Source: Flavihumibacter soli
GTDB taxonomy: Bacteria > Bacteroidota > Bacteroidia > Sphingobacteriales > Sphingobacteriaceae
DNA length: 64,000 nt
Direction: 5' to 3'
NCBI RefSeq assembly: GCF_010692725.1
Contig: NZ_JAAFZB010000096.1
Coordinates: 248,001 to 312,000, forward strand
Each line of letters starts with the position of its first letter. The stretch's first letter is position 1. Under the pieces are notes generated by a model, which did no database searches, was not told the DNA's origin, and was given only the letters and a program-made list of their open reading frames with translations. Of this stretch, positions 11,080-36,642 are shown in pieces. A program made the translations under genes and the position numbers.

Positions 11080-11898
11080 ATGGAATACGTAGAAGAACTC
11101 AAGGTACTGATGTTCACCTATCTACCTCCCTTTATTCTGGCCCTGTTCGTCCTGATCGTTGGATGGTGGATCATCGGAAGGATTTCGAAGCTCATTTTTT
11201 CCAAATTAGGTAGGATCGACCTGTCATTGAGGGCATTTTTAACGAGTATGCTGGAGATAATCCTCAAGGTATTACTGGTTATCAGCGTGGCGGGTATGGT
11301 AGGAATTCAAACCACTTCCTTTATTGCCCTGATCGGTGCTGCCGGCCTGGCTGTTGGCCTGGCACTGCAGGGTACACTTGCCAATTTTGCCGGGGGAGTA
11401 CTGATCATTATTTTTAAACCTTACCGCGTTGGCGATTTGATTGAAGCACAGGGGAAGACGGGCCAGGTCAAAACCATCCAGATCTTTAATACCATTTTAG
11501 CCACAGGAAAGGGAGAAACGGTCATCCTTCCGAACGGGGCCGTATCAAACGGCATCATTGTCAATTATACCACAGAGGGATCAAGCCTAGTTGAAGTGCA
11601 GGTGGAACTTGACAGCGAAACAGACCTGAAAAGGGTCCGCTCAATTGCAATCCCTTTAATCGGGGAGGATAAACGGGTATATGATTCACCTCCTCCCAGT
11701 GTCGATCTTCTCGCTTTGAAACCCGGGGCCATGGTTCTGGCTTTCAGGGCACGGACAAGTCCGGCTTCGGGCAGTGAAGTCTATGGGGCCATGATCGAAA
11801 AAATAAAAACCATGATATCCAACTATAATTTACCGACTCCGGTCAGACGGGTAAATGTGCACAACAGTTTCGAAGATGATTTCCAAAGGGATCTTTGA
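11080..11898 (+). CDS. Small MscS-type mechanosensitive channel
   Basis: A 272-residue inner-membrane channel. Three hydrophobic segments lie at about 12-35, 55-80 and 85-110. The third carries the MscS pore signature GLAVGLALQGTLANFAGG, followed by the beta-domain (YRVGDLIEAQGKTGQV, VILPNGAVSN). Length fits the E. coli MscS class. It would release small solutes under membrane tension. It is the first gene of a rightward trio with the HAD and DUF502 genes, converging on the sulfatase run; a 21-bp-spaced direct repeat precedes it. Confidence 0.9.
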   Translation: MEYVEELKVLMFTYLPPFILALFVLIVGWWIIGRISKLIFSKLGRIDLSLRAFLTSMLEIILKVLLVISVAGMVGIQTTSFIALIGAAGLAVGLALQGTLANFAGGVLIIIFKPYRVGDLIEAQGKTGQVKTIQIFNTILATGKGETVILPNGAVSNGIIVNYTTEGSSLVEVQVELDSETDLKRVRSIAIPLIGEDKRVYDSPPPSVDLLALKPGAMVLAFRARTSPASGSEVYGAMIEKIKTMISNYNLPTPVRRVNVHNSFEDDFQRDL

Positions 11899-11904
11899 TT
11901 GAGT

Positions 11905-11935
11905 TGTCAGGTATCAGCTGTCAGGTATCAGGTTT
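11905..11935. repeat. Short dispersed TCAGGTATCAG repeat
   Basis: Two copies of GTCAGGTATCAG joined by a CTGTCAG unit, 6 bp after the MscS stop codon. The same words make up the longer array at 41881-42065, so this is one member of a dispersed intergenic family. Confidence 0.55.
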
Positions 11936-11968
11936 CGATTAATCTATCCAGAAAAATACATCACCGTT

Positions 11969-13018
11969 ATGAAACCATTAGGTTCTTTTAGATACTTGTT
12001 TATAGCGGGTTTAGCAGCCCTTGTCATTAGTAGTGGTCACATAGACAAAGGGTTTGATCTCCCTGACAGTTCCTCAGACAAAATAAGGGAAATACAATCT
12101 GACCCATTGCCTTCATGGAATGATGGACAGGCCAAAAAAGCGATTACAGGTTTTGTGAAGGCAATAACCACGGAACGTTCTCCGGGTTACGTAGATGTGA
12201 AAGACCGGATAGCCGTGTTTGACAACGATGGCACTTTATGGGCGGAACAGCCTCTGTACTTTCAGTTCCTGTTTGCTATTGACCGGGTGAAAGCGATGGC
12301 ACCGCAGCACCCGGAATGGAAAGATAAAGAGCCTTTCAAGTCCATTTTAGCAGGCGACGTTAAAAAAGCCTTGGCGGGCGGTGAAAAAGGCCTGATGGAA
12401 TTGATGATGGTCACACATGCGGGCATGACCACGGAAGAATTCAGTAAAATAGTAAAAGACTGGGTCAGCACCGCCAAACATCCGCGTTTCAAAAAGCCTT
12501 ATACTGCATGCGTTTATCAGCCCATGCTGGAACTGCTTGATTATTTAAGGGCAAATGGCTTTAAAACCTTTATTGTATCCGGAGGTGGCATTGAATTCAT
12601 GCGACCCTGGGCAGAAGAAGTGTATGGAATTCCGCCTCAGCAGGTTGTGGGCAGTAGTATTAAAACAAAATTTGAAGAACGCAACGGCCAGCCCGTGCTT
12701 GTCCGTTTACCGGAAGTCAATTTCGTTGACGATAAAGAAGGCAAGCCCGTAGGCATTCAGCAGCATATAGGGAAACGCCCGATCGCCGCCTTTGGTAATT
12801 CTGACGGGGATTTTCAAATGCTGGAATGGACCACCTCTGGCAAGCCGCCCCGCTTCGGGCTTATTGTTCATCATGACGACTCCGTTCGTGAGTGGGCCTA
12901 TGACCGGAACTCCCATATTGGCAGGCTGGAACGCGGTCTTGATGAAGCTTCAAAAAGAAAATGGATCATCGTAAGCATGAAAAACGATTGGAAAACAATA
13001 TTCCCGGGAGACAAGTAG
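11969..13018 (+). CDS. Exported HAD-superfamily phosphatase-like protein
   Basis: A 349-residue protein with an N-terminal hydrophobic export signal (about 10-22) and a haloacid dehalogenase fold. Motif I is FDNDGTLW (catalytic Asp-Asn-Asp near 88-90), motif II is probably FIVSGGG near 203-209, and motif IV is FGNSDGDFQM near 276-285. It resembles the phosphoserine-phosphatase-like branch. The predicted reaction is periplasmic phosphomonoester hydrolysis; the substrate is unknown. It lies between MscS and DUF502 next to sulfatase genes, which suggests joint removal of phosphate and sulfate esters, although that is inference. Confidence 0.8.
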   Translation: MKPLGSFRYLFIAGLAALVISSGHIDKGFDLPDSSSDKIREIQSDPLPSWNDGQAKKAITGFVKAITTERSPGYVDVKDRIAVFDNDGTLWAEQPLYFQFLFAIDRVKAMAPQHPEWKDKEPFKSILAGDVKKALAGGEKGLMELMMVTHAGMTTEEFSKIVKDWVSTAKHPRFKKPYTACVYQPMLELLDYLRANGFKTFIVSGGGIEFMRPWAEEVYGIPPQQVVGSSIKTKFEERNGQPVLVRLPEVNFVDDKEGKPVGIQQHIGKRPIAAFGNSDGDFQMLEWTTSGKPPRFGLIVHHDDSVREWAYDRNSHIGRLERGLDEASKRKWIIVSMKNDWKTIFPGDK

Positions 13019-13060: not shown

Positions 13061-13684
13061 ATGAAACGCTTATCGGCATTGATCAGAGCTTTGATCATCA
13101 GGGGGATGATCATTCTCCTGCCTCTCATCGCACTAATCGTTCTGCTGGAAAAAACTATTGGATTTCTCGGCAAACTCCTGCTTCCCATTACAAGCAGAAT
13201 TTCTTTGGGCTATGACGGCCCGCTAATTCGCCTGGCTTTCAGTCTGGTGGTGCTGCTGCTAATCTGCCTGATTGCCGGACTATTTGCAAGGACCAAACCA
13301 TGTCAGAATTTAATTTCCTATATCGAAACCCAAATCCTGTTACTGATACCGGGGTATTCGTTTGTCAAAAGTATGAGCGCAAATTTAGCAGGGGTTGAAG
13401 ACATAGATCTGCAACGGGTGGTTCTCGTCAGGTATGACGATTCAAGTCAGATCGGTTTTCTGATTGAGGAGATCGGGGATAAAGCAGTGGTCTACCTGCC
13501 CGACGCACCACATCCCTTATCGGGATCTGTAATTATCTTCCAAAAGGAACGGGTTAGCGATTTACCCATTACCTCCAAACAAGCTCTCAGCCTTTTTACT
13601 CAAATGGGTAAAGGCACTTCGCGATATTTGAATGCTGATATAAAAAAGGTCTCTCCTTCTGCTGCTAAACCTCCACCAATGTAA
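13061..13684 (+). CDS. DUF502 family membrane protein
   Basis: A 207-residue protein of the DUF502 family, recognised from two N-terminal transmembrane segments (about 8-32 and 55-75) and the downstream segment RTKPCQNLISYIETQILLLIPGYSFVKSM, shown here only as a landmark between residues 77 and 105. The soluble C-terminal half has IGFLIEEIGDKAVVYLPDAP. The function is not established. It is the last gene of the MscS-HAD-DUF502 trio and faces the convergent DUF202 gene across 146 bp. Confidence 0.82.
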   Translation: MKRLSALIRALIIRGMIILLPLIALIVLLEKTIGFLGKLLLPITSRISLGYDGPLIRLAFSLVVLLLICLIAGLFARTKPCQNLISYIETQILLLIPGYSFVKSMSANLAGVEDIDLQRVVLVRYDDSSQIGFLIEEIGDKAVVYLPDAPHPLSGSVIIFQKERVSDLPITSKQALSLFTQMGKGTSRYLNADIKKVSPSAAKPPPM

Positions 13685-13830: not shown

Positions 13831-14214
13831 CTATTGTCTGAACAATGCTCCTAAAAACAGTAAAAGACCAAATACCAACGTTAAAATAGCGAGCAGTGCC
13901 GAGAGTGACCTCTGGGCATGAGGATAGAACTCCTTTAAGCGCCTTAACGCCTGCTGATGCTGGATCTGTGCCAAAAGAAGGCCCAGAAGGCCAAAGCAGA
14001 TCATGACCAGGCCAACTACTCTTGGAGTGATAAGTCCCTCAACCCCACCTGGCTTTTTGGTCATTTCCTCGAAAAATTTATAGATGGTAAAGCCGAATGA
14101 AATCATGGATGTCGAGGTTCTGATCCACGCCATTAAGGTCCGTTCATGCGCGAGCAGCGTTCTCTCGAAGGCAAGATCGTTGCTGCTTATACCTGCAGTA
14201 TTTTCTTCAGCCAT
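13831..14214 (-). CDS. DUF202 (YidH-type) membrane protein
   Basis: A 127-residue protein with the DUF202 signature near its N-terminus (FERTLLAHERTLMAWIRTS) and three transmembrane segments at about 30-48, 68-88 and 103-124. The function of the family is unknown. It is the last gene of the leftward run that begins with the short sulfatases and lies 7 bp after the pentapeptide-repeat gene, so the two are almost certainly co-transcribed. Confidence 0.85.
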   Translation of the reverse strand: MAEENTAGISSNDLAFERTLLAHERTLMAWIRTSTSMISFGFTIYKFFEEMTKKPGGVEGLITPRVVGLVMICFGLLGLLLAQIQHQQALRRLKEFYPHAQRSLSALLAILTLVFGLLLFLGALFRQ

Positions 14215-14221
14215 TGCCTTA

Positions 14222-15067
14222 TTATTTGATGATACAGTTCACTTTTTTTGAATCACCCCAATTTACTGTTGAGACATCCGCACCAGAGAAATCGGTATTG
14301 TGAATTGTTGAATTAGAAAAATTAACATTTACCAGTTTGGAGTCGCGGAATGAGGTACCTAACCTGGAAGTTATCCTGGTGGTCAATCTTCTTAAAGCTT
14401 CAAAACCCGGCGTACCGGCTAAAGCCCTTTTACTGATCAAAGCACAACTGAGTGCCATTATCACCGTTCCTATTCCACCGCCTACGCTTTTACCAAACAT
14501 ACCGCCGCCCAGGGCGACAACGATGAACAGGATATTAGAAGATAATGTTCCCGCTGCTGCCCGGGCTACTGTTCCAACCATAAACATGACCGCTACCAGT
14601 ATATATGCGAGAACAAGATACACCGACCCCATGCCGGTGCCCGCTCCCGTCAGGTAAGCTAGCAGTCCAACCAGCAATGCAATGAAGGAAGCCGGCAATA
14701 TCAGGTTACGGATCGCAGTGCCCACCCCTTTCCAATAAGAATAAACAATAAAGAGGATTATAAGGACTATTGAGGCGATCCCTGCAGTCCTGATATAGGC
14801 ATCCCCAGAGGCCAGCATACCCTGAATGGTACGACCGGCAAGCATGGCTATGTAGCCTGAAAACAGGGAAATGATCAAGGCGGAAATAAAAACTAACACC
14901 TTGTTTGCAGGAGGAATTCCAGTTCTAACCCGGCTAAGATCAGCACCTGTAAGATTGGAACCAGTGAAATCAGCTCCGCGAAGATCGCTGCCCTCGAAGC
15001 TTACATTACTCAGGTCCTGATCTTTAAATGAGACCCTCTGAAGATTTTTATTGGCATAGTTATCCAT
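14222..15067 (-). CDS. Membrane protein with pentapeptide repeats at both ends
   Basis: A 281-residue protein built in three parts. An N-terminal block of about eight pentapeptides (NLQRV, DLSNV, DLRGA, DFTGS, NLTGA, DLSRV) precedes roughly 180 residues with six or seven hydrophobic segments. A C-terminal block of about seven degenerate pentapeptides follows (KLVNV, NFSNS, DFSGA, DVSTV). The two blocks could pack into one short beta-helix on the cytoplasmic face. The start at 15067 gives an 8-bp overlap with the DUF1622 stop; an ATG at 15079 is also possible. The function is unknown. Confidence 0.75.
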   Translation of the reverse strand: MDNYANKNLQRVSFKDQDLSNVSFEGSDLRGADFTGSNLTGADLSRVRTGIPPANKVLVFISALIISLFSGYIAMLAGRTIQGMLASGDAYIRTAGIASIVLIILFIVYSYWKGVGTAIRNLILPASFIALLVGLLAYLTGAGTGMGSVYLVLAYILVAVMFMVGTVARAAAGTLSSNILFIVVALGGGMFGKSVGGGIGTVIMALSCALISKRALAGTPGFEALRRLTTRITSRLGTSFRDSKLVNVNFSNSTIHNTDFSGADVSTVNWGDSKKVNCIIK

Positions 15068-15470
15068 GGTCTTTATCAATTAATTTATCCTGCACCTGTT
15101 TCTCCGCAGCGATTCGTGATAACTCCATTTGTTCGGTGAGCTCCCTGTTCAGGAAATAATTCAGGAAGGTCCTGATAATAGCAACAGCTCCTAACTGGAT
15201 TAATTGTTCATTTGTTGGGGCTATAATAGTGCCTACGATATCAGCAGCCAATTGAAATTCAAGGGCTACCACCAGCCAGCCCCCAAATGTCATTCGGAAA
15301 TACATATGAGGCGGATATCCGATTAAGCGATTACCTTTCCTTAGAGTGCGGACAATAGAAACAAACACGCCCAATACAATAAATAACAGCGAAATGGCAT
15401 TTAATATGATTTCTGTAAATTCCCCCCAGATGAATACTCGGGCTTTTATTATCTCTATAAGCTCATACAT
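15060..15470 (-). CDS. DUF1622 family membrane protein
   Basis: A 136-residue integral membrane protein recognised as DUF1622 from the core RMTFGGWLVVALEFQLAADI and the following IIRTFLNYFLNREL. It has about three transmembrane helices and a charged C-terminal tail. The function is unknown. It overlaps the downstream pentapeptide-repeat gene by a few bases, a sign of translational coupling, and lies 40 bp after the outer-membrane barrel gene. Confidence 0.83.
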   Translation of the reverse strand: MYELIEIIKARVFIWGEFTEIILNAISLLFIVLGVFVSIVRTLRKGNRLIGYPPHMYFRMTFGGWLVVALEFQLAADIVGTIIAPTNEQLIQLGAVAIIRTFLNYFLNRELTEQMELSRIAAEKQVQDKLIDKDHG

Positions 15471-15510: not shown

Positions 15511-16326
15511 CTATTGTGGGAAAACAAGCGTTATCACACCTCGGAACCCAAAAGCGGCCAGATGTTCATCCGGTCCGCCTAGTGGAACTCTTGGCCCCAC
15601 TGCAATTGAAACTGTTTGTTTTCCTAGTTTGGTCACGCCGGAAACCACCGGGTTCAGGTATGCCAGTGTGTAGCTTTGCTCCCAATTGCATGTGATCTCA
15701 GAATTAACACTGACACTGGCACCGCTCTTCCAGCTTTTTGATAAAAATGGTTGCAGAAACAACTGGTTCAGATCGCTCCGGTCATCGTCGCCTGCGAACG
15801 ACCAGATCTGATTCGTCAGGAAGCCATAAGTCAATCCCTTGGCTTGTTTTAGTACTAATAAGGTGGGTCCTATTCCCCATTTCCGGGTGCTGAGAAGATC
15901 ATCCGTGCCTATCGGAACTAAAAAAGCCGGGCCGGCTCCCCAGATGAAGCCACCTTTGCCTCCAACGGGGGAAAAAAAAGCGGAGATAGTGGCATCACTG
16001 AGACCAAACTCACTGTTCCCGGCACCGCTTATATCATGCTGATCCACAATTGGAATGATGTACCGTGTAATGAGATTTAATTTAGGGCTCAGTTTAATCG
16101 GTATAACAGGCTGAAAGTTAAGCGTGAATTTGGATCCATTCAAATCACCAATACCATAGTCCACATTGCTCTGAAATGGCACGCTGATCAGGCTGGCAAC
16201 GGGGTTAGACAGCTTATCTGCCAATTCCTGGGCATCGGAAGCCGGCTTTTCCTGAGCGCTGACATTTGAAAAAAAGATCAGGCCCGCAACTAGCAGAACA
16301 ATTTTGCTGCTCATGTTTTCGGTCAT
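15511..16326 (-). CDS. Outer-membrane barrel-like protein ('neuromedin U'-annotated family)
   Basis: A 271-residue exported protein. A signal peptide ends at about residue 24 (FFSNVSAQ). The rest is a series of amphipathic beta-strands ending in VITLVFPQ. The pattern IPIKLSPKLNLITRYIIPIV, then FFSPVGGKGGFIWGAGPAFLVPIG, matches a family often labelled 'neuromedin U' in bacteria, related to outer-membrane transporter-like barrels. Either of two close ATG codons could serve. It probably forms an outer-membrane pore; its position inside the sulfatase run suggests it passes a sulfated substrate. Confidence 0.68.
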   Translation of the reverse strand: MTENMSSKIVLLVAGLIFFSNVSAQEKPASDAQELADKLSNPVASLISVPFQSNVDYGIGDLNGSKFTLNFQPVIPIKLSPKLNLITRYIIPIVDQHDISGAGNSEFGLSDATISAFFSPVGGKGGFIWGAGPAFLVPIGTDDLLSTRKWGIGPTLLVLKQAKGLTYGFLTNQIWSFAGDDDRSDLNQLFLQPFLSKSWKSGASVSVNSEITCNWEQSYTLAYLNPVVSGVTKLGKQTVSIAVGPRVPLGGPDEHLAAFGFRGVITLVFPQ

Positions 16327-16388: not shown

Positions 16389-16402
16389 ATTCTTAATTCT
16401 TA
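16389..16402. repeat. Heptamer ATTCTTA, two copies over a stop codon
   Basis: Two ATTCTTA units overlap the end of the barrel gene at 16393, so its last codons (Lys-Ile-Lys-Asn-stop) are written by the repeat. The same heptamer forms arrays at 34217 and 42198. Confidence 0.5.
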
Positions 16403-17262
16403 ATTTTCGACGTGCTCCAGGGCCTTTTTCCAAATGCATAGGTTGCCGCAAACGACGGTCCGTTATAACCCCATTTCAGATGCCCTTCCAAAGTATTTCT
16501 GGTCACATCAACCCGGAAATTTAGCCCGGTATAGGCAAGCGCAAGGTGCAGGTGTTCTATTGGCTTGTAAGTGACGGCAATATTATAGGTCGTTATTCTG
16601 CCATCGGTTTCGTCAACCTTTAACGACAAATATCCGAGCTCCCCGTTTACTGCGACACGATCGCTAATGGCGTAGCCCCCCCAGATACCGAGGTCAGGAA
16701 GGGGAGCTGTAAAATCAAAATCGGAACTCGCTGTGCCGCCCACATTCGTACCGACGACCGTAAGGCCGGTGCCGGTCTCGACAACATGCGTCCCGATCAT
16801 CAATCCAAGCTCGTACCGTGGTTTAGCAAGCACCGCATAACCATAGGAAAAACGATAGATCTTTGTTTCAAAAAAAGCGTCTATTTCCGTGTTTACCGGG
16901 TAAGTTTCGTCACCGAAAATGATCTCCTCGTCCAGCGTTTTAGAAACATCCCGGTTAAGGAAGAAATACTTCAGGTCAAAGCGTGAACGCCGCCAGGCAC
17001 GCCATTGCAGCTCCGCGACGAAAGTGGTCGTTGACTTTTCAAAACCAAGATCATCCTCCAGATCGAGATCAGTACCAATGGTACCGCTATTGCCGCTCAC
17101 CCGGATGTTCGTTTCACTTATCGGGATGAACACCCCGGCGCTGATTTTGTACCGCTCGACAAACCATGGAGCAACTGGTGTAGAAGCATCCTGGCAATAA
17201 CCCAAATATCCCTGTAACAGCAACGGTGTTACCAAAAGGATAAGTTTTATATGTGTAGCCAT
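16393..17262 (-). CDS. Putative outer-membrane beta-barrel protein
   Basis: A 289-residue protein from the ATG at 17262, which gives a clean leader (a hydrophobic run ending in GYLGYCQD). An ATG at 17301 would add 13 polar residues. Alternating strands such as AELQWRAWRRSRFDLKYFFL and LHLALAYTGLNFRVDV suggest an OmpW-like or OprF-like eight-to-twelve-strand barrel. The family is not identified. It lies between the formylglycine-generating enzyme and another barrel, so it is probably the second outer-membrane component of the sulfatase operon. Confidence 0.6.
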   Translation of the reverse strand: MATHIKLILLVTPLLLQGYLGYCQDASTPVAPWFVERYKISAGVFIPISETNIRVSGNSGTIGTDLDLEDDLGFEKSTTTFVAELQWRAWRRSRFDLKYFFLNRDVSKTLDEEIIFGDETYPVNTEIDAFFETKIYRFSYGYAVLAKPRYELGLMIGTHVVETGTGLTVVGTNVGGTASSDFDFTAPLPDLGIWGGYAISDRVAVNGELGYLSLKVDETDGRITTYNIAVTYKPIEHLHLALAYTGLNFRVDVTRNTLEGHLKWGYNGPSFAATYAFGKRPWSTSKIKN

Positions 17263-17328
17263 TTTTTCAAATACTAATTTCTCCTCTATAAATCGATACA
17301 TCAGGACACCGGACCGTCCAACCTTTCC

Positions 17329-18303
17329 TTATTTCTCCCTCACAATACATCTAAAACCCAGGTGATTCATACCGGTATCGATCATTTGCGGCTGGCGTGC
17401 CGCAGGCCTGTAACGCAGGCAATAATTCGGTGCGCACAAATGTGAGCCACCCTTGATCACTCTCCGGGGTATTTTCACATCCGGCTGACAGGGATCGTAA
17501 CTTCCTTCCGGGGAGCTAACCCGTGGATTCAGTGGGGTGCAGCAGCTCTTATGGTCTTTCGCAAGTTCACCCGGGTGGGCAACATACCAGTCGATCGTCC
17601 ATTCCCAAACATTGCCGGCCATATCATAAAGACCATAACCGTTCGGTTCATACGAGCCTACCGGCGATGTTCCTTCATACTTATCGATCAATAAATTTTC
17701 ATAAGGAAATTCGCCCTGCCAGGTATTGGCCCGGGGTTCGTGAAGCTGGGCATCGTCATTACCCCAGGTAAAATCCATTCCTTCCAGCCCCCCCCTTGCA
17801 GCGAACTCCCACTCGGCTTCTGTGGGTAGTTGCTTTCCAGCCCATTTCGCATAAGCCTCTGCATCCTCGAAAGCAATATGAATCACGGGATGATCTTCTA
17901 ATCCATCCAGAGTACTTTGAGGGCTTCTCGGATGCCTCCAGTATGTCCCGGGAACCCATGCCCACCAGTTAAAATAGTTTTTCAGATCGACGGGGCCCTT
18001 CGCTTTTTGAAAGACCAGGGCCCCGGGAACCAGTAACGCGGGGTCTGCGCCGGGAAACTCTTCCGGATTAAGCGGTCTCTCAGCAACCGTGATATAACCT
18101 GTTTCCTCAACGAATCTTTGATACTCTGCATTCGTAACTTCAAACTTATCGATATGAAAACCGTCGACAGCCACTTCGCGAACAGGCTTCTCGTCGGGAT
18201 AAAACTTATCTGAACCCATAAGGAATTTCCCCCCCGGGATATAGATCATATTCTTCAGTCTGCCTGACTTTGTTTCCTCGGATAAGTTTGGTGTGTCTAT
18301 CAT
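17329..18303 (-). CDS. Formylglycine-generating enzyme (SUMF1-type sulfatase activator)
   Basis: A 324-residue enzyme that oxidises the active-site Cys of sulfatases to formylglycine using oxygen. The fold begins with IPGGKFLMGSD and includes PVIHIAFEDAEAYAKWAG, LPTEAEWEFAARGG and GNVWEWTIDWY. Both copper-binding catalytic cysteines are present with the right spacing, Cys290 and Cys295, in GGSHLCAPNYCLRYR, corresponding to the pair in the human enzyme. This separates it from the many SUMF1-like proteins that lack them. There is no signal peptide, so it acts in the cytoplasm, where sulfatases are modified before or without export. It lies 150 bp downstream of two sulfatase genes. Confidence 0.93.
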   Translation of the reverse strand: MIDTPNLSEETKSGRLKNMIYIPGGKFLMGSDKFYPDEKPVREVAVDGFHIDKFEVTNAEYQRFVEETGYITVAERPLNPEEFPGADPALLVPGALVFQKAKGPVDLKNYFNWWAWVPGTYWRHPRSPQSTLDGLEDHPVIHIAFEDAEAYAKWAGKQLPTEAEWEFAARGGLEGMDFTWGNDDAQLHEPRANTWQGEFPYENLLIDKYEGTSPVGSYEPNGYGLYDMAGNVWEWTIDWYVAHPGELAKDHKSCCTPLNPRVSSPEGSYDPCQPDVKIPRRVIKGGSHLCAPNYCLRYRPAARQPQMIDTGMNHLGFRCIVREK

Positions 18304-18453: not shown

Positions 18454-19986
18454 TTAATCGCCGCTTGCTGCTTCAGCCATTTTCGCCAGTGCATCATCCA
18501 CGGTAAATGAGTTAGGCCTTTGCACAGCAGGAAAGTCTCTGAATGTTTCTGCAAATTTGCCCGCAGCAGCCTGCGCTGCATAGATGAAGTACGCATTATG
18601 AAGCATCCAATCGTAATATGAGTTTGATGTAATAGGCGCAAACTCGTACGGATCGATACGCAGGTTAAAGATCTTTGGCAAGCGCAACCGCACAAAAGGT
18701 TCCGCCCATACACCCAACGTACCTTCCAAACGCTGTTCCATGAATACGAGTTTCCAGTTATCAAAACGAATCCCCAGCATGTCACCGTCGTCGCTGAAAT
18801 AGAAAAAGAATTTGCGTGGAGCTTCCTTTTCTTCACCGGTTAAATACGGTAATAGGTTATAGCCGTCAATATGATTTTTGTAGGTGCGTCCAATGGCCTG
18901 ATAACCATTCTTCAATTTATCCACAACATCAGAGGCGCCAGCCATTGCAAGAAATGTCGGCAACCAGTCGTGCTGTTGAACGATCTCATTAGAAACAGAA
19001 CCTGCTTTTATTTTACCCGGCCATCTTACCAGCAGCGGGATACGAAAAGCTCCTTCCCAGTTGGTGTTTTTTTCGCTGCGGAATGGAGTGGTTCCTGCAT
19101 CGGGCCATGAATTTCTATGTGGACCATTGTCGGTGGAGTACACGACAAAAGTGTTTTCAGCAATACCCAATTCATCAAGCAGGTCAAGCATTTGGCCAAC
19201 ATTCTTATCATGATCTACCATTGTGTCATGATAAGGTGATTGCCAGCGACCCGCCTGTCCCAGACTTTTTTCCTTTGTATGGGTAATGAAGTGCATATGG
19301 GTGGTGTTCAGCCAAACGAAGAATGGCTTACCGTCATTCTTCTGCCTCTTGATGAAGTCGGTGGCGGCGGCAACGAACTCATCATCGCAGGTCTCCATTC
19401 TTTTCACATTGAGTGGACCCGTATCTTCTATTTTTTGTTTACCTACCTTTCCCCATCTGGGCATTTCAGTGATATCGTCTTTATCTGTTGCCCAGGAATG
19501 AATAACACCTCGAGGCCCGAAGGTTTCTTTGAATTTAGGATCCTTTGGATAGTTGTACATCTCGGGTTCTTCTTCCGCGTTCAAATGATATAAATTCCCG
19601 AAGAATTCATCGAAGCCATGATTGGTAGGCAACATGTGGTTTAAATCGCCAAGGTGGTTCTTTCCGAATTGCCCTGTTGCATAGCCCTGTTCCTTTAACA
19701 ATGCAGCGATCGTTATCAGTTTGTCATTCATGCCGATAGGCGCTGCTGGGATACCAACCTTAGATAAGCCGGTACGATAAACACTTTGACCGGTGATAAA
19801 CGAGGATCGCCCAGCCGTACAGGACTGTTCACCATAAGAGTCAGTAAACATCATTCCCTCTTTTGCTATCCGATCAATGTTGGGAGTTTGGTAACCCATC
19901 AATCCGTGCGAATAACAACTTAAATTTGAAATCCCAATGTCATCTCCCCAGATGACAAGAATGTTCGGTTGTTTTTGCTCTGCCAT
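18454..19986 (-). CDS. Short arylsulfatase, CTAGR active-site motif (copy 1)
   Basis: A 510-residue type I sulfatase. Metal ligands begin with GDDIG (Asp15-Asp16), and the formylglycine site is Cys56 in SCTAGRSSFITGQ. The motif is C-x-A-x-R, a permitted variant of the usual C-x-P-x-R. Further sulfatase segments are FGKNHLGD, NTTHMHF and YSTDNGPH. I chose the ATG at 19986 because it begins MAEQKQPNIL and clears the upstream gene; the longer frame to 20064 would overlap it. No signal peptide. The 58-bp gap to the paralogue upstream indicates a tandem duplication in one operon. The substrate is unknown. Confidence 0.9.
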   Translation of the reverse strand: MAEQKQPNILVIWGDDIGISNLSCYSHGLMGYQTPNIDRIAKEGMMFTDSYGEQSCTAGRSSFITGQSVYRTGLSKVGIPAAPIGMNDKLITIAALLKEQGYATGQFGKNHLGDLNHMLPTNHGFDEFFGNLYHLNAEEEPEMYNYPKDPKFKETFGPRGVIHSWATDKDDITEMPRWGKVGKQKIEDTGPLNVKRMETCDDEFVAAATDFIKRQKNDGKPFFVWLNTTHMHFITHTKEKSLGQAGRWQSPYHDTMVDHDKNVGQMLDLLDELGIAENTFVVYSTDNGPHRNSWPDAGTTPFRSEKNTNWEGAFRIPLLVRWPGKIKAGSVSNEIVQQHDWLPTFLAMAGASDVVDKLKNGYQAIGRTYKNHIDGYNLLPYLTGEEKEAPRKFFFYFSDDGDMLGIRFDNWKLVFMEQRLEGTLGVWAEPFVRLRLPKIFNLRIDPYEFAPITSNSYYDWMLHNAYFIYAAQAAAGKFAETFRDFPAVQRPNSFTVDDALAKMAEAASGD

Positions 19987-28900: not shown

Positions 28901-28936
28901 AACACTGATTTTCTTAGTTAAATATCCGGTTAGCAA

Positions 28937-29935
28937 TCAACTTACAGGCTGCGCTTCGGGGAATTCCCAACTGCCGTCGAGAATCTCTTTTCCCGGGCGA
29001 TAAAGCCGTACGGTATAATTCCAGTCTTTTGTGATGGGCAGGCAATTCACTGAATCGTCATCGCAACCGCCAAACTGAATGATGATCGAACCGTCTGCTT
29101 CCTTTTTGGCAGTGAGATTGTTTATTGTATAAGCATCCCGGCTGTTCTTTTCATAATACCCGAGGTCATTGTACACACTGACGGACCAGAATGCTTCAAC
29201 AGGCACATCCTTAACAGTAAGCTTGTAAATCGTGTTGCCATCATTCTTTGGAGGCACGACATTTAAGTATTTCGCATCCCTTTCGGGATTACCTCCCCAG
29301 CCCGAAGCAGTTCCAATTAAATGCCGCACAGGATCTACATCTTCCTTTTTACCAAATGCACCTGAAAAATCAGGAATGGTTTCAGCCAATATGAGCAGCG
29401 CACCCCTGACCTTCCACTGAGAGGCGGTGTCCCATTGAGGCACTTCAAATTTTCCAGGGCCACCCGGCTGACCAACTTTTACTGCATCCTGCAAAGTGTG
29501 AACTGCATCCAGATCGTTAGGATCGGAAGGGTCAACCAGTGTTCTTAACCCGATCAGTATATAACGGGTGCCTGCTTGCTCACGATTAAAATTATAAAGG
29601 CCCGCTCCGTATTGCACATCAAAAACATAGTGATCTTCATTCACTGCCATCAATGACATAAAGCGTTTGCCTGCATCGGGCAATGTGATCGTCACCGGTC
29701 CTGCATCCAGGTCGAATACAGCAGAAGAGTAAACTGTATCGCGGTTACCCCGGATCACTGTTTGATCATCTACCGAAAACAGTTCGCGGTAATGATGAAA
29801 CTTTCCAAGACTGTTCTGCTTTACTGCAACCGTAGAAAAATACATGTCTGTTTCGGCACGTGCGAAATTATCAACCGTTACTGTTATAGGTTGGGATGAT
29901 GGGACTTCTGATTTTTCATTTGACTGTGTTTCCAT
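28937..29935 (-). CDS. Short DUF1254/DUF1214 protein (copy 2)
   Basis: A 332-residue paralogue of the gene at 24928, matching it along the whole length (for example NRDTVYSSAVFDLDAGPVTI versus NRDTLYSAAVFDLDAGPVTI). The C-terminus ends with DGSWEFPEAQPVS, compared with NGTWKFPEAQPLS in copy 1. No signal peptide and no Shine-Dalgarno sequence. It lies 143 bp downstream of the GC-rich long sulfatase. The short and long DUF1254 forms alternate in this run, which suggests two functional classes. Confidence 0.86.
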   Translation of the reverse strand: METQSNEKSEVPSSQPITVTVDNFARAETDMYFSTVAVKQNSLGKFHHYRELFSVDDQTVIRGNRDTVYSSAVFDLDAGPVTITLPDAGKRFMSLMAVNEDHYVFDVQYGAGLYNFNREQAGTRYILIGLRTLVDPSDPNDLDAVHTLQDAVKVGQPGGPGKFEVPQWDTASQWKVRGALLILAETIPDFSGAFGKKEDVDPVRHLIGTASGWGGNPERDAKYLNVVPPKNDGNTIYKLTVKDVPVEAFWSVSVYNDLGYYEKNSRDAYTINNLTAKKEADGSIIIQFGGCDDDSVNCLPITKDWNYTVRLYRPGKEILDGSWEFPEAQPVS

Positions 29936-30078: not shown

Positions 30079-32457
30079 TTACTGTATGGCCATCGCGACG
30101 GCCAGGCGTTCTTCCGGCTTAATAAGATGGTCCAAATCCTCGGCCGCCTCGCTAACATCGATCTCCACCCATTTCACCTCACCAGTAAACTTCCTGTCGG
30201 AATAGTCCGTGGTGACGGGCGAACCATATTCGTTACCGATATCGCAGGTCTCATCTGCCGAGAAAACCATGAACTCAGTCTTCTCGACCCGGCCATCACC
30301 TATCTGATTACCGTCAAGATAAAGCGTGACTGTTCCGCCCTTCCCAAGCCCGCCGCCGTCGTATGCAAACTCCGCCCGTACCTGGTGTGTGCCTGGAGGT
30401 AGATCATTTTTACCTTCAATATAATATTGTTCCATGCCGTAATAGTTGTAACAATACTTCGGTTTACCGTCCTTCACATAAAGACTCCAGCCACCGATGT
30501 TACCGCCGATGGCGATGATCACTCCCCCGGCACCGGCGTCGGGCACGACCAACTCTGCTGTTACAGCATGGCTTTTATTCTTATAATTGACGATCGAGTT
30601 TTCGGTCAGCCGGCCCATCCCGCCAAACAGGAGCTGGCGATTGCCCCGTACAAGCTGCGGACGGCCTGCAAGGTCAGCGTTCGCGCGTTCGGCCATTCGG
30701 TCATCCATCGGCAGCACATTGTATTTCACAGCTTCGATCATCCACAGCTGCTGCAATTCAGCCAGCTTTGCGGGTTCCGCTTTCGCGATGTCATTCGCCT
30801 GTGTCCAGTCTTTGGTCGTGTCGTATAATTCCCAGACGTCTTCGGCGAAAGTGTGATCTACCACGCTTACCGTATCCCAGGGGATCCGCCGCCGGGTCAC
30901 AGCGGTCCATCCGTTGTGATAGATGCCGCGGTTGCCCATCATCTCAAAATACTGTGTCTTGTGACGTTCATAGGCCTTTGGGTCGTTGAAAGAATAGACC
31001 ATCGAAACTCCTTCAAGCGGTTTCTGCATCACGCCGTTGACATAGGTTGGCTCAGGCAGACCGGCCGCCTCCAGTACGGTCGGTGCTACATCGTTGATGT
31101 GGCAAAACTGGTTGCGGATCTCGCCCTTTGCCTTTATGCCGGCGGGCCAGTGAACGATCGTGCCATTACGGGTACCGCCGAAGTGTGAAGCGATCTGCTT
31201 GGTCCACTGATACGGTGTGCACATCGCATGGGCCCAGCCGACCGCGTAGTGATTGTACGACTCCGGCCCCCCAAACTTGTCGAGGCGCTCGGCGAAATAC
31301 TCCGGCGTTTCAAGGTCGCCGAAGCCGGTGATCGACAGGACCTCATTGAACGTCCCCTTGATAGATCCCTCGGCTGACGCGCCGTTGTCGCCGATAATGA
31401 CGTATATAAGGGTGTCATTCAGGATATTAAGATCCGCCAGCGAATCGATCAGCCGTCCGATATGATTGTCGGTATGGGCCAGGAATGCAGCATAGACTTC
31501 CATTTGACGAGCCAGAATAGGCTTCATCTCGGCAGACATCGAGTCCCAAGACGGAATTTGCTCGTGTCGTTTCGTAAGCGTTGCATCATTGGGAATCACG
31601 CCCAGCTTCTTCTGGCGTTCAAAGGTCTCTTCGCGGACCTTGTCCCAGCCCTGGTCGAACTTCCCATTATACTTTTCGATCCATTCCTTTGATACGTGAT
31701 GCGGCGCATGCGTTGCACCCGTCGCGAAGTACACGAAAAACGGTTTGTCGGGCATCAGCGACTTCTGCTGGCGGATCCACTTTGTTGCCTTCGAAGTCAG
31801 GTCTTCGGTAAGGTGATAGCCTTCCTCCGGAGTCTTTCCTGGCTCTACCGGCGTTGTACCCTCGAACAGCGCAGGGTACCATTGGTTCGTCTCGCCGCCG
31901 ATGAAGCCGTAGAAATATTCGAAACCGCCTCCGCCAGTGGGCCATGCATTAAACGGCCCTACAGGAGTCACTTCCCAGACGGGCACTTCATGGCATTTAC
32001 CGAACTGGGCGGTCGAATAGCCGTTGAGCTTTAAGGTCTCAGCAAGCGGCGCGCAAGTGTTGGGCCGGATCGAGCTATTTCCCGGAGCGCTGGTAGCATT
32101 CTCGGTGATGTTACCCATCCCGACCGTATGGTGGTTGCGGCCGGAAAGCAGAGCCGCCCGGCTTGGCGAGCAAAGTGCAGTGGTATGAAAGCGAGTGTAC
32201 TTAAGCCCGCCCGCAGCAAGCTTCTCCAAATTCGGAGTCTGGCATGGACCGCCAAATGCGCTCGATGAACCGAATCCCGCGTCGTCAATCAGGACCACGA
32301 GCACATTGGGAGCGCCTCGGGGCGGGCGCAGGGGCTCGATCTTCGGATACTTTGTGTCTGGGTCCCTGGCATCAAAGGTTGTAAGACCTACCTGAGCACG
32401 ATCCGGGATCGGTAAGACTGCCCGTTGAATCGAATTATTGTCATGAGTTGCTTGCAT
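30079..32457 (-). CDS. Long arylsulfatase, CSPSR motif; GC-rich, probably acquired
   Basis: A 792-residue type I sulfatase. Asp58-Asp59 (LIDDAG) begin the metal site, and Cys96 is the formylglycine residue in ALCSPSRAALLSG. FGKCHEVP, THAPHHV and IGDNGAS follow. A C-terminal jelly-roll-like region (about 640-780) contains SLYVKDGKPKYCYNYYG. No leader; the N-terminal 45 residues are polar. GC is visibly higher than in the other long sulfatase (36 of 60 bases at 31141-31200, against 31 of 60 at 35341-35400), and a strong Shine-Dalgarno sequence precedes the ATG. Both point to transfer from a GC-richer donor. Confidence 0.92.
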   Translation of the reverse strand: MQATHDNNSIQRAVLPIPDRAQVGLTTFDARDPDTKYPKIEPLRPPRGAPNVLVVLIDDAGFGSSSAFGGPCQTPNLEKLAAGGLKYTRFHTTALCSPSRAALLSGRNHHTVGMGNITENATSAPGNSSIRPNTCAPLAETLKLNGYSTAQFGKCHEVPVWEVTPVGPFNAWPTGGGGFEYFYGFIGGETNQWYPALFEGTTPVEPGKTPEEGYHLTEDLTSKATKWIRQQKSLMPDKPFFVYFATGATHAPHHVSKEWIEKYNGKFDQGWDKVREETFERQKKLGVIPNDATLTKRHEQIPSWDSMSAEMKPILARQMEVYAAFLAHTDNHIGRLIDSLADLNILNDTLIYVIIGDNGASAEGSIKGTFNEVLSITGFGDLETPEYFAERLDKFGGPESYNHYAVGWAHAMCTPYQWTKQIASHFGGTRNGTIVHWPAGIKAKGEIRNQFCHINDVAPTVLEAAGLPEPTYVNGVMQKPLEGVSMVYSFNDPKAYERHKTQYFEMMGNRGIYHNGWTAVTRRRIPWDTVSVVDHTFAEDVWELYDTTKDWTQANDIAKAEPAKLAELQQLWMIEAVKYNVLPMDDRMAERANADLAGRPQLVRGNRQLLFGGMGRLTENSIVNYKNKSHAVTAELVVPDAGAGGVIIAIGGNIGGWSLYVKDGKPKYCYNYYGMEQYYIEGKNDLPPGTHQVRAEFAYDGGGLGKGGTVTLYLDGNQIGDGRVEKTEFMVFSADETCDIGNEYGSPVTTDYSDRKFTGEVKWVEIDVSEAAEDLDHLIKPEERLAVAMAIQ

Positions 32458-32721: not shown

Positions 32722-34149
32722 CTATTGTTTTTTAACCGCCGGCGGCGTCCAATTATCTTCCGTAATCTCTTCATCCGGCCAATAGCATCTTATATATAAT
32801 GAAAACGCTTCTTTAGGTGCGGGCAGCCAATTGTTCTTCTTCGATTCTTCCGGCGCAGTGCTTTGCACATATAGTGTAAGTGATCCATCGTCGTCAAATT
32901 GCAGATTCTTATTCTTGGTACCGAGTGAATACCGATTCAATTCATTGGGAGAAAAGAAATGTTCCTTGTTGTAAAGGGTCAAAGACCAGAAACCCTTTAC
33001 AGGTGGCGATTCTCCTTTTTCAAATCTGACCGTATAACTATTATTGCCGTCCAGCCGTTCACCGGAAGCATCGCGATCCTGGTAATAATACTTTGTTTCA
33101 TTAGGTCTGTTCACAAAAATGTTTGCCCTGGCACAGGAAGTTCGGGTGAGGTAATCAAATCCAAACTGTGCGCCGTTCCGCTGCGTGTTCCAGTTATTCT
33201 TTACCGGATAACCCACATTAACAAATTGAAATAAAGGAGCCACCAGTTTCATTTCAGCATCTGCAGCAGCGTGGATGGCCACGACTTTGAGCTTTGGATT
33301 CTTCGTGATGGCTGTCAGTAAGCCATTGATCTGTACATATAGTGCTTCTTCTCCCAATTGTGCCGGTACTTCTTTCAATATATCGGGCAGCTGATCAAAG
33401 AAAGTTTCCGGGTTCACCCATTTTGTTTCAGCCCCACCCGAATTGTCCGGCGGTGTTGATTTCAGTTTCGTCCATTCCGTAATTTTCATTTTCCCATCAA
33501 ACTCACTGAGCGGATACATCGTGATCTGGCTGATCAATGGCTGCACCGCTTTCTTATCCGCCGGATCATCTGATTGGAACACTCTTGGAATAACAATGCC
33601 CAGGGTTGTGGGGCATTTGAATACGTCAGTTATACCATCCGGGATTTTTCCATTCCAGTCAGTGCCGGTCAATAAATAGAAGCCTGGTTTTGTATCATAC
33701 ATTTTCCCAACGCTTGCAAAACCGTCGGTTCGCTGATCGCAAATTTGATACACCCAAAAACGGTCGCCAAAATCGGGCACCTGTATCACTACGGGTTCTC
33801 TACGAAAGTCTAGAGAACCCATGCCATAAACCACATCCTGGTTAGGACAAGCAACAGCTCTTTCCTCAGGCTCCACATAATCTGTAAGCATGCACATGCG
33901 ACTGGGTGGTGCTAGAGGTAATACGCCACCTCCATACATAGGCTCTTTAAGCTGGGCAAATAGCAGGTACCGGTTATGGAGATTCGTCATCGGCCATCCC
34001 CAGAGATAAATGAATTTTGCAAGTGTCTTGACAAACTCTTCCGTGTAGATCGTATTAGCAACTGGCCCGCGAAGCTGTGCTCCTTTCTCTCCGGTTGTCG
34101 TTTTGAATCCGGCATTTGCCCCTTCAGTTTTTTCCATCGTTGTTCCCAT
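32722..34149 (-). CDS. Long DUF1254/DUF1214 protein (copy 3)
   Basis: A 475-residue protein with DUF1254 at about 45-175 (FIYLWGWPMTNLHNRYLL, PNQDVVYGMGSLDFRREPVV) and DUF1214 at about 345-465 (VKGFWSLTLYNKEHFFSPNE, SLTLYVQSTAPEESKKNNWL). The start at 34149 has a second ATG four codons in. No leader. It lies between a complete long sulfatase upstream and the sulfatase tail downstream, which suggests an ancestral repeating unit of sulfatase plus DUF1254 gene. The function is unknown. Confidence 0.85.
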   Translation of the reverse strand: MGTTMEKTEGANAGFKTTTGEKGAQLRGPVANTIYTEEFVKTLAKFIYLWGWPMTNLHNRYLLFAQLKEPMYGGGVLPLAPPSRMCMLTDYVEPEERAVACPNQDVVYGMGSLDFRREPVVIQVPDFGDRFWVYQICDQRTDGFASVGKMYDTKPGFYLLTGTDWNGKIPDGITDVFKCPTTLGIVIPRVFQSDDPADKKAVQPLISQITMYPLSEFDGKMKITEWTKLKSTPPDNSGGAETKWVNPETFFDQLPDILKEVPAQLGEEALYVQINGLLTAITKNPKLKVVAIHAAADAEMKLVAPLFQFVNVGYPVKNNWNTQRNGAQFGFDYLTRTSCARANIFVNRPNETKYYYQDRDASGERLDGNNSYTVRFEKGESPPVKGFWSLTLYNKEHFFSPNELNRYSLGTKNKNLQFDDDGSLTLYVQSTAPEESKKNNWLPAPKEAFSLYIRCYWPDEEITEDNWTPPAVKKQ

Positions 34150-34216
34150 AACCCTAATAGTTTATTTTAAATGTTCGCTCAGCAAATGGTATTTGTACCA
34201 AGCACGCACTCTGTCT

Positions 34217-34276
34217 TCTTAATTCATCATTCCTAATTCATCATTCTTAATTCGTAATTCGTAATTCTTAATTCTC
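34217..34276. repeat. Degenerate heptamer array (ATTCTTA-like)
   Basis: About eight imperfect units of TTAATTC, AATTCAT or AATTCGT directly after the stop codon of the long sulfatase at 34279. Related to the arrays at 16389 and 42198. Confidence 0.6.
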
Positions 34277-34278
34277 CA

Positions 34279-36642
34279 TCAGTCCCTCGCCAATACGGCT
34301 TCCATTCTCTTTTCAAGATCTACATAAGCATCATCGGCTAAGTTGAATACAACTTTGATGATCTCACCACCCTTGAATTCGAACTTCGGTTTATAGGCAC
34401 TACTTACCGCATCGCCTCCGTCATAGCCGATACACAATCCCTCTCCGGCAAGTGCGTAGTGCCCGGATTGAGTCCGAAAATCTGCCTCGGCCTTTGTGTC
34501 GTGATCAAGATGCAGTTTCATCCGTCCGAGTACTTCCAGGTTTTTGCTGATAGATTGTTTATTGAACTCAACACCAATGATATGCTTGCCCGGTTTCGGC
34601 GCATCGCAACTGAGAGTCTGTTCGGGCGGAACGCCGAGGAAATTATAAACGAAATGAATCTTGCCGTCTTTTACAAAAAGCGAATAACCACCAAATCGCG
34701 AGCCCTGGGCGAAAATGACGCCCTGGGCATCATCCTTGAATTCCACTTCCGCCAAAATCTTAAAGGAAGCGCCCAGTGTTCGTGCGGCAGAGGCTTCCGG
34801 AACCTCCGAAGTTCCCGGATAGTATGTATAGCTTCCGCTGGCTGGAGGCGCCTGGTGGAATTCCATTTCATGTATGGTCGCAACGCCAACGTCGATCAAA
34901 GGCAGCACATTATTCTTCTTCGCTTCTTCAAGCCACAGTTTCTTGAGTTCTTCCAATTTTTCGGGGTATTTATCGGCGAGATTATTCGCTTCCGACCGGT
35001 CTTCATCCGTATTGTACAATTCCCACCGATCCTTATCAAAATTTCCCTGGTCAGAAGGCAGCGGTGCATGTTCGGCAGCAGCCTTCCACCCTTTGTGCCA
35101 GATGCCTCTCGTTCCGCACATTTCATAATACTGAGTCTCTTTTCTGGTAGGCGTACTGGCATTGTCGAACGTATATTTCATCGATACGCCGGCCAGGGGA
35201 GCCTGCTTCACCCCATCGATGTAATCGGGCATCGGAATGCCACAGCACTCCAGGATCGTAGGAACGATATCGGTACAATGATGGTACTGATCACGCAGCT
35301 CCCCCTTTGCCTTAATTCCCTTCGGCCAATAAATAACCAAAGGGTCACAAGTGCCGCCTGCATAGGAAGCGTATCGCTTGAACATTTTGTAGGGAGTGGA
35401 AAAAGCTGTTGCCCAGCCTGTAGGATAATGATTGTAGGTGTCAGGACTTCCAAGCTTGTCGATCATCTCCATATTCTGCTTGATGTCGTCGGGATAGCCA
35501 TTGAAGAAACGGTTCTCATTTACGGAACCATTCGGGCTTCCTTCCCCCGAGGCGCCGTTATCGGCGCAATAAAATACCAATGTGTTCTCCAGTTGCCCTG
35601 ATTCGTCGAGGTAATCGATCAGGCGCCCTATTTCAACATCGGTATACTCTGAAAATGCCGCATATACTTCAGCCATACGGCTGAACAATTTCTTTTCATC
35701 ATCATTCAGCGTATTCCACGGGCGAACAGAGTCGCCTTCTGCCAGTATTTCCTTAGGCATCGGATTGATCGGGGTAAGCTCCGTATCCTTTGGCAAAATG
35801 CCCCGATCGATCATCCGCCTGAGCACCCATTCCCGATAGGCCTCATAGCCATCGTCAAACTTTCCTTTATACTTATCAATATATTCCTGTGGAGCATGGT
35901 GCGGGGCATGGTTAGCACCCGGACAATACCACATGTACCAGGGCTTGTCGGGCTGCGACTGCTTCATGTCTCGAATGTATGTTATCGCCTTATCTGCGAG
36001 ATCTTTCGACAGGTGATATCCTTCTTCTGGCTGATAGGGCTGGTCAATAAAATGGTTGTCCTCTATGATCTCGGGATACCACTGGTTGGTCTCGCCCCCG
36101 ATAAAGCCGTAGAATCGGTCATAACCCAGCCCGAGCGGCCATCTTTTTTTGGAAGCGCCGATGCTAAAAGCATCGACAGGGACATTGTGGTTCTTGCCGA
36201 TCCAGAATGTGCCCCAGCCTGCATCACGAAGGATCGTTGCGATGGTTCCGTTCTCAAGTGGTATATGCCCATTGTAACCCGGAAATCCTGTCGCCGCTTC
36301 AGAAATTGTCCCATAACCGTTTTGGTGGTGATTGCGGCCCGTCAAAAAGCACGAACGGGTTGGTGAACAAACTGCAGTCGTATGCCATTGCGTATAGGTT
36401 AACCCTTCCTTTGCCAGCCTGTCCATAGTGGGCATGTCTATGCGCCCCCCATAAGGTGACCAAGCTGCCTGCCCGGTATCATCGTAAAGGATCACCAGGA
36501 CATTTGGGGCTCCTTCAGGAGCTTTGGTATCCAGGAATGCCGGCCAGTCAGGTTTCGAATCGCGTACGTCCAGGCTTATCGTGCCACGAAACCCGTTCTG
36601 TGAACCGTAGATATTTTCAGAACGTTGGTCTGATGGTGTCAT
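34279..36642 (-). CDS. Long arylsulfatase, CSPTR motif
   Basis: A 787-residue type I sulfatase. The first metal ligands are in LYDDTG (Asp54-Asp55), and Cys92 is the formylglycine residue in AVCSPTRSCFLTG. WIGKNHNVP, ANHAPHHAP and CADNGASGEG follow. A C-terminal jelly-roll-like domain of about 150 residues includes SLFVKDGKIHFVYNFLG. No leader peptide. It is the first gene of the second leftward run and probably the native counterpart of the GC-rich copy at 30079. The long form resembles the mycobacterial AtsA-type class; the substrate is unknown. Confidence 0.92.
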   Translation of the reverse strand: MTPSDQRSENIYGSQNGFRGTISLDVRDSKPDWPAFLDTKAPEGAPNVLVILYDDTGQAAWSPYGGRIDMPTMDRLAKEGLTYTQWHTTAVCSPTRSCFLTGRNHHQNGYGTISEAATGFPGYNGHIPLENGTIATILRDAGWGTFWIGKNHNVPVDAFSIGASKKRWPLGLGYDRFYGFIGGETNQWYPEIIEDNHFIDQPYQPEEGYHLSKDLADKAITYIRDMKQSQPDKPWYMWYCPGANHAPHHAPQEYIDKYKGKFDDGYEAYREWVLRRMIDRGILPKDTELTPINPMPKEILAEGDSVRPWNTLNDDEKKLFSRMAEVYAAFSEYTDVEIGRLIDYLDESGQLENTLVFYCADNGASGEGSPNGSVNENRFFNGYPDDIKQNMEMIDKLGSPDTYNHYPTGWATAFSTPYKMFKRYASYAGGTCDPLVIYWPKGIKAKGELRDQYHHCTDIVPTILECCGIPMPDYIDGVKQAPLAGVSMKYTFDNASTPTRKETQYYEMCGTRGIWHKGWKAAAEHAPLPSDQGNFDKDRWELYNTDEDRSEANNLADKYPEKLEELKKLWLEEAKKNNVLPLIDVGVATIHEMEFHQAPPASGSYTYYPGTSEVPEASAARTLGASFKILAEVEFKDDAQGVIFAQGSRFGGYSLFVKDGKIHFVYNFLGVPPEQTLSCDAPKPGKHIIGVEFNKQSISKNLEVLGRMKLHLDHDTKAEADFRTQSGHYALAGEGLCIGYDGGDAVSSAYKPKFEFKGGEIIKVVFNLADDAYVDLEKRMEAVLARD

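Follow-up and report, generated by a model that had tools for sequence, protein, structure and literature searches.

We analysed a 64,000-nucleotide window of the 4.44-Mb genome of Flavihumibacter soli (contig NZ_JAAFZB010000096.1, positions 248001-312000), and found at window positions 11080-36642 an island in which sulfatases lie together with DUF1254/DUF1214 proteins and a HAD phosphatase-like enzyme. Gene families were assigned by Pfam scans of the window proteins, and operons were inferred from gene spacing. Two operons run on the minus strand: operon 1 (21562 to 13831) reads S_B-S_A-FGE-omp2-omp1-DUF1622-pentapeptide-DUF202, and operon 2 (36642 to 24928) reads S_D-D5-S_C-D4-D3-D2-D1. Here S_A to S_D are sulfatases, FGE is the formylglycine-generating enzyme, omp1 and omp2 are putative outer-membrane proteins, and D1 to D5 are the DUF1254/DUF1214 proteins. 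Two shorter runs, MscS-HAD-DUF502 and LpxL-unknown-Omp85, lie on the plus strand. An original prediction, made from the sequence alone, had placed four complete sulfatases in two classes, FGE, HAD, MscS, DUF502, DUF202, pentapeptide and DUF1622 proteins in this interval, and the Pfam scans confirmed all of them; the DUF1254/DUF1214 proteins, which it had counted as four or five, are five (24928, 26055, 27599, 28937 and 32722, all minus). The island holds 5/5 DUF1254 matches and 4/14 sulfatase matches of the genome.

The four sulfatases all carry the PF00884 domain and the C-x-(P/A/S)-x-R motif of type I (formylglycine) sulfatases. The motif is CTAGR in S_A (18454..20064, 536 aa, with a likely start MAEQ near 19986) and in S_B (20045..21562, 505 aa, the first gene of operon 1), CSPSR in S_C (30079..32457, 792 aa) and CSPTR in S_D (34279..36642, 787 aa, the first gene of operon 2); S_C and S_D form the large class. 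The residues that bind the metal and the sulfate (DD, K-x-H, H, DN, K) were located by aligning S_A with arylsulfatase A and S_C with Pseudomonas aeruginosa PAS (PDB 1hdh), and for S_B and S_D by a motif scan, in which the single-His pattern gave no match in S_C and S_D. These catalytic residues support predicted desulfation by the island sulfatases. The K-x-H motif distinguishes sulfatases from phosphonate/phosphodiester hydrolases, and we dropped the latter assignment for S_A, which retains the sulfatase-type K-x-H and other residues. FGE (17329..18303) scored 228 bits to human SUMF1, and its CAPNYC aligns with the human CHRSYC cysteine pair, which we take to be the catalytic pair. A third large sulfatase of this genome lacking an export signal, 43% identical to S_D, is encoded about 80 kb from the island (195573-197876 of the same contig, L246).

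HAD phosphatases are recognised by DxDx(T/V), S/T, K and D motifs. All four were found in the HAD protein of the island (11969..13018, plus strand; DNDGT 85, IVSGG 202, IGKRP 267, GNSDGD 276), the core partner of S_A, and phosphatase activity is predicted on this basis. The mature protein gave 448 bits against PDB 4ovy. In another genome, a HAD relative with an in-frame TGA adjoins an S_C-like large sulfatase (G140:C31:42806-46554, L226), so HAD pairs with the other sulfatase class too. The DUF1254/DUF1214 proteins D2 (26055..27503), D3 (27599..28936), D5 (32722..34149) and the short D1 (24928..25911) and D4 (28937..29935) each have both domains above the curated cut-off. D2-like genes stand beside D5 orthologues in several genomes, and D3-like genes do so at L047, L056, L057 and L061.

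We found that these families are co-distributed across genomes. The SusC/SusD genes of the window and the closest relatives of D5 point to Bacteroidota as its phylum. Among 395 genomes of the phylum (S_A at E<=1e-60, HAD at E<=1e-40), DUF1254 was carried by 16, S_A by 11 and HAD by 14; the 11 S_A genomes, own genome counted, had HAD in 11/11 and DUF1254 in 9/11. With the own genome left out, HAD occurred in 10/10 S_A carriers vs 3/384 others (p 1e-17), and DUF1254 in 8/10 vs 7/384 (p 2e-11). The same held at the genus level, both for HAD (4/4 S_A genera vs 2/166, p 4e-7) and for DUF1254 (3/4 vs 4/166, p 2e-4). By their coordinates, S_A and HAD lay on the same strand and at most 370 bp apart in all 10 non-own carriers. 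A sample of 299 Pseudomonadota genomes, the phylum of G411 (Microvirga), had S_A (E<=1e-100) in 31 and DUF1254 in 58. After two genomes found through D5 were left out, DUF1254 occurred in 22/29 S_A carriers vs 34/268 non-carriers among the remaining 297 (p 1.4e-12). Genomes picked by D5 carried S_A in 19 of 21 cases, and 6 of the 22 non-own DUF1254 clusters lay within 15 kb of a sulfatase, vs 0.76 expected (p 6e-5). A tight, universal sulfatase-DUF1254 operon was ruled out by the other 16/22 clusters, which lie more than 15 kb from any sulfatase; the neighbours of D5 are mostly other DUF1254 genes. At the thresholds applied to the phylum sample, 0/9 same-family genomes matched DUF1254, S_A or HAD, which suggests that the island was gained by transfer.

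Furthermore, we compared the gene neighbourhoods of 92 S_A/S_B-type loci (S loci) with those of 20 control loci of other sulfatases, which avoid S_A places. Regions were taken from 40 of at least 58 S_A-type places in Pseudomonadota, and six plasmid regions (H31, H32, H38, H41, H1 and NC_012858) were viewed among the 60 matches listed, picked before their neighbourhoods were known. HAD (43 vs 1), FGE (27 vs 1), MoxR (24 vs 0), omp1 (16 vs 0) and DUF1254 (15 vs 0) were enriched at S loci (p 0.0002 to 0.04); Omp85 (11 vs 0), DUF202 (7 vs 0), DUF1622 (4 vs 0), MscS (3 vs 0) and LpxL (1 vs 0) were not significantly so. Since the controls all come from the window's phylum and most of the 92 S loci from elsewhere, the enrichment of FGE, DUF1254 and MoxR is partly a phylum effect. 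A like-for-like test of 19 Bacteroidota S loci against the 20 same-phylum controls, in which overlapping open reading frames were kept (which raises the overall HAD and omp1 totals by two loci each over the 92-locus count), retained HAD (13/19 vs 1/20, p 4e-5), omp1 and Omp85 (9/19 vs 0/20, p 4e-4 each). DUF1254 (3/19 vs 0/20, p 0.11), FGE (3/19 vs 1/20, p 0.28), DUF202 (1 vs 0), DUF1622 (0) and MoxR (0/19) were non-significant. It is thus co-distribution, more than adjacency, that carries the DUF1254 link. The recurrence that the original prediction proposed as a check was therefore borne out for the co-distribution of S_A, HAD and DUF1254 and for the adjacency of S_A to HAD and outer-membrane proteins; the adjacency of FGE and DUF1254 was non-significant within the phylum. 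Because the sulfatase-HAD pairing is tight, we suggest that the substrate, whether a single compound or a pool, carries both sulfate and phosphate esters.

Individual loci displayed this recurrence in different orders. S_A-HAD-omp1-(D2-D5) was found at L062 and L063, and L107 has a comparable run that includes a DUF502 gene. A plasmid of Neorhizobium petrolearium, whose protein is 81% identical to S_A, reads HAD-FGE-omp1...DUF202-sulfatase-S_A-DUF1622, and a Rhizobium plasmid holds FGE, sulfatases, HAD, omp1 and DUF1254 within 16 kb. S_A-HAD-FGE-S_C stand together in G182 (L126), and in G505 the orthologue of S_D (77% identical) belongs to the stretch D5-D3-S_A-HAD-S_D. The Achromobacter loci L103 and L105 read S-HAD-BatD-VWA/TPR-VWA-DUF58-MoxR-FGE; L113 and L114 have this MoxR gene set in other orders, L113 without FGE. 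The MoxR/DUF58/VWA/BatD operon also adjoins S_A-type sulfatase and HAD at L097, L185, L187 and others. S_A loci of the MoxR type often have a fused MFS-spermidine synthase (11/92 loci) or a TPR multihaem cytochrome (13/92).

It could be argued that the island is a chance neighbourhood, in which ordinary operons for sulfatases, DUF1254 and membrane proteins, independent of each other, happen to adjoin. The variation of operon order between phyla, the non-significant adjacency of FGE and DUF1254 within one phylum, and the presence of S_C/S_D-type, pentapeptide, omp2 and LpxL genes near only 3, 0, 0 and 1 of the 92 S_A-type loci all favour this explanation. However, the adjacency statistics strongly disfavour it for S_A-HAD, as does co-distribution for DUF1254, and we rejected it for the core; for the island as a whole we regard it as very improbable. 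It could remain true of the pentapeptide, omp2, LpxL and MscS genes; MscS and pentapeptide, both listed in the original prediction, recur at 3/92 and 0/92 S loci.

Next to gene content, we considered the compartment of the proteins. Among the homologues of the sulfatases, HAD and DUF1254 proteins, the majority have an N-terminus of Sec, lipoprotein or Tat-like type. No export signal was seen by hydrophobicity and inspection in S_A, S_B, S_C, S_D, FGE or D1-D5 of the window; HAD and omp1 do carry one. The HAD signal was present in 44/46 rows, the other two being G411 and G505, the latter in the stretch described above. The original prediction of a cytoplasmic system thus finds support, through missing signal peptides in these heuristic calls, for the sulfatases and DUF1254 proteins of the window, as an exception among homologues that mostly look exported. 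We placed 103 S_A/S_B-type sulfatases on a tree, built by a quick method with no bootstrap. Its 13 signal-less rows, among them two from the window and a hand-labelled one, require five changes of state, a number that the well-supported branches also force; the majority state was used to infer the direction of change. The tree excludes L087, whose gene is split into two pieces, and L193, whose start is wrong; by hand, L203 was reassigned to the signal-bearing rows and an S_A of L089 to the signal-less ones.

The signal-less state was found to cluster by genome. It was seen in 2/2 rows of the window, 4/4 of G505, 3/3 of Lysobacter gilvus, 2/2 of the Neorhizobium plasmid, 1/1 of G640 and 1/2 of Microvirga tunisiensis. 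Among the 31 genomes or records with at least two tree rows, 4 were all signal-less, 1 was mixed and 26 were all signal-bearing, and 0/20000 shuffles (which ignore phylogeny) reached this clustering. The large class behaves in the same way: S_C/S_D-type sulfatases are signal-less in 3/3 own-genome genes and 6/6 in G505, and signal-bearing in 16/16 elsewhere. D5 orthologues lack the signal in 4/29 rows (one gene counted twice), from L045, Lysobacter, Microvirga and G505.

DUF202 and DUF1622 followed the signal-less state. With the window excluded and several loci sharing a genome, DUF202 lay near 5/10 signal-less vs 2/81 signal-bearing S loci (p 1e-4), DUF1622 near 3/10 vs 1/81 (p 0.004), and MoxR near 0/10 vs 23/81 (p 0.06); L087 was counted as signal-less here, as its separate N-terminal piece has no signal, and L193 was left out. 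The co-occurrence expected of these two membrane families in the original prediction, non-significant over all 92 S loci, therefore seems tied to the intracellular form. In L045, a Bacteroidetes metagenome-assembled genome without an S_A match, a DUF202 gene lies between two signal-less DUF1254 genes (9977-13078).

Taken together, the co-distribution and the signal-less clustering lead us to propose, with a probability of roughly 0.6, that the island is an intracellular variant of a recurrent, otherwise envelope-located module that hydrolyses organic sulfate esters and probably phosphate esters. FGE would activate the four sulfatases by oxidising their active-site cysteine to formylglycine. 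Small esters could enter by way of the barrel proteins of the outer membrane, and in the window their passage across the inner membrane is perhaps aided by the DUF202 and DUF1622 (and pentapeptide) membrane proteins, acting in uptake or anchoring. The two sulfatase classes would then strip sulfate in the cytoplasm, the DUF1254 proteins might bind the same substrate, act on it or pass it on, and HAD, here still with an export signal, would remove a phosphate group from the same compound. The expected products are sulfate for assimilation and a carbon skeleton. That export signals are missing repeatedly, and in concert within a genome, is evolutionarily unusual and suggests that a whole pathway, rather than single enzymes, moved inside the cell. 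The module also links the family DUF1254/DUF1214, and with it DUF202 and DUF1622 as small membrane families, to sulfatase and HAD, which makes their function testable. A bolder version, which we put forward tentatively and consider rather doubtful, is a two-compartment module with envelope and intracellular forms. The intracellular form would have arisen repeatedly, as unrelated sulfatase paralogues and their DUF1254 partners lost their export signals in concert; it would move between phyla and bring DUF202/DUF1622 as uptake or anchoring parts, and DUF1254 would be a new enzyme whose substrate is a small molecule both sulfated and phosphorylated.

Several observations weigh against the proposal of an intracellular module. 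The window HAD keeps its export signal, which would place the two kinds of hydrolase in different compartments. In G505 D3 and another D5 have lipoprotein signals, and a signal-bearing D5 stands beside a signal-less sulfatase. Export signals (Sec, lipoprotein, Tat-like) were called heuristically, by a hydrophobicity cut and by eye. Adjacency is far from universal, with DUF1254 near 15/92 and FGE near 27/92 S loci and non-significant for both within the phylum. Most DUF1254 clusters are distant from any sulfatase, some of the six sulfatase-near clusters adjoin sulfatases of other types, and G399 has signal-less DUF1254 proteins and no S_A match. The co-occurrence statistics ignore kinship and genome size, and the sampled genomes are related. 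Finally, Pfam scans found no sulfate-ester uptake system among the island genes, and for DUF1254 structures exist, with no activity found.

The nature of the DUF1254 proteins bears on another explanation, a glycan-directed module in which glycoside-hydrolase-like DUF1254/DUF1214 proteins would dismantle a sulfated saccharide or glycolipid together with the sulfatases. D5, the protein whose fold was examined, is modelled with the two-beta-sandwich fold of VPA0735. A search of the PDB with it brought out no characterised enzyme, a lack of match that excludes nothing, and among viral models it pointed to DUF1214/DUF1254 proteins of giant viruses (Harvfovirus, Satyrvirus). D105, R189, D421, N440, R454 and several Tyr/Trp residues are invariant in 32 aligned DUF1254 proteins, which would fit such an activity, and one paper presents a Malassezia DUF1214 protein modelled as a jelly roll with a proposed glycosyl-hydrolase function (PMC4634964). 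In view of that model, the argument of the original prediction that missing glycosidases imply a non-polysaccharide substrate is weak. The small sterol, lipid or aromatic sulfate that it favoured gained no support from the analysis and was not contradicted by it. The absence itself held within 11080-36642, where no SusC/SusD pair, glycosidase or carbohydrate-binding module (CBM) gave a Pfam match, and not in the wider window, where a SusC/SusD pair lies with GH16, GH30 and GH5 at 45471-55800, 8.8 kb from the island. This pair belongs to a SusC/SusD locus at 42283-57025, which looks like a beta-glucan utilisation locus and also favours the glycan explanation. We consider a glycan-directed role unlikely.

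That locus encodes a Y_Y_Y/LuxR-type regulator, a PKD protein, GH16, GH30, a GH5-CBM6 protein and a multihaem cytochrome-like protein. Beyond it, at 57065-60341, a GntP-type gluconate permease lies beside a 642-aa protein in which a kinase domain (SKI/AAA) is fused to 6-phosphogluconate dehydrogenase.

Of the remaining island genes, operon 1 encodes the exported and probably barrel-type omp1 (15511..16326, minus, no Pfam match), a homologue of which is labelled 'transporter' in a plasmid record, and the outer-membrane barrel omp2 (16393..17301, minus, an OMP_b-brl match under its cut-off). It continues with the DUF1622 membrane protein (15060..15470, minus), the pentapeptide-repeat protein with its hydrophobic, probably transmembrane middle (14222..15079, minus) and, as its last gene, the DUF202 membrane protein (13831..14214, minus). 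The plus-strand genes encode an MscS-type channel (11080..11898, Pfam MS_channel), a DUF502 membrane protein (13061..13684), an LpxL-type acyltransferase missing from the original prediction (21921..22862) and an Omp85-superfamily barrel (23688..24875). Outside the island, an AraC-type protein (9816..10781, plus, Pfam HTH_18/AraC_N) is a possible regulator; its own relatives occur at 2/92 S loci and a different AraC family at 8/92. AraC and MscS genes beside the Neorhizobium cluster were not counted as counterparts, as their products match those of the window at just 22-24 bits.

With this gene content, the enzymes might instead form an envelope-remodelling or stress module, whose target would be a sulfated or phosphorylated lipid or envelope component of the cell itself and not a nutrient. 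LpxL, Omp85, MscS and DUF502 in the island, Omp85 at 9/19 same-phylum S loci, the MoxR/VWA/BatD-type operon beside S_A-type sulfatases (24-26/92 loci), an L,D-transpeptidase and OpuAC adjoining the Neorhizobium cluster, and the lack of recognised sulfate-ester or sulfonate uptake genes in Pfam scans of the island are consistent with it. However, LpxL recurs in 1/92 and DUF502 in 2/92 loci only, and MoxR is absent from the island, from 19/19 same-phylum S loci and from 10/10 signal-less loci. We judge such a role improbable, and retain the ester-hydrolysing module as our preferred reading.

In the open-licence literature we found no paper that treats DUF1254 together with a sulfatase, nor one on a cytoplasmic or cytosolic sulfatase with FGE and signal peptide, and the excerpts of papers on DUF1254 (PMC3751524, PMC6710368) and VPA0735 (PMC10734457) do not describe the module. 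Each enzyme type is known; for the module, and for its intracellular form, we found no description in that literature. The PDB titles of the DUF1254/DUF1214 structures VPA0735 (2p3y, 3vb9) and VPA0106 (3u07) give no function, and 4ovy, on which no literature search was made, is named just HAD hydrolase.

Among known systems, the solved structures closest to S_A and S_B are of the arylsulfatase A/GALNS type (1auk, 4fdi, 7aj0), from which the two proteins differ by CTAGR in place of C-x-P-x-R and by having no export signal. For S_C and S_D, the closest solved structures are those of PAS/AtsA (1hdh, 4cxk), with a residue alignment for S_C only; the island proteins are about 250 aa longer and have HAD, DUF1254 and DUF202 instead of adjoining ABC transporter or dioxygenase genes.

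PAS scavenges sulfur in the cytoplasm, and in ats/ssu-type clusters a sulfatase stands beside ABC transporter or sulfonate/alkylsulfate oxygenase genes, neither of which gave a Pfam match among the island genes. Polysaccharide-utilisation loci of Bacteroidota combine multiple sulfatases and a maturation enzyme in one island. Unlike them, the island described here has no SusC/SusD, glycosidase or CBM match; what it shares with them is the grouping of several sulfatases with their maturation enzyme.

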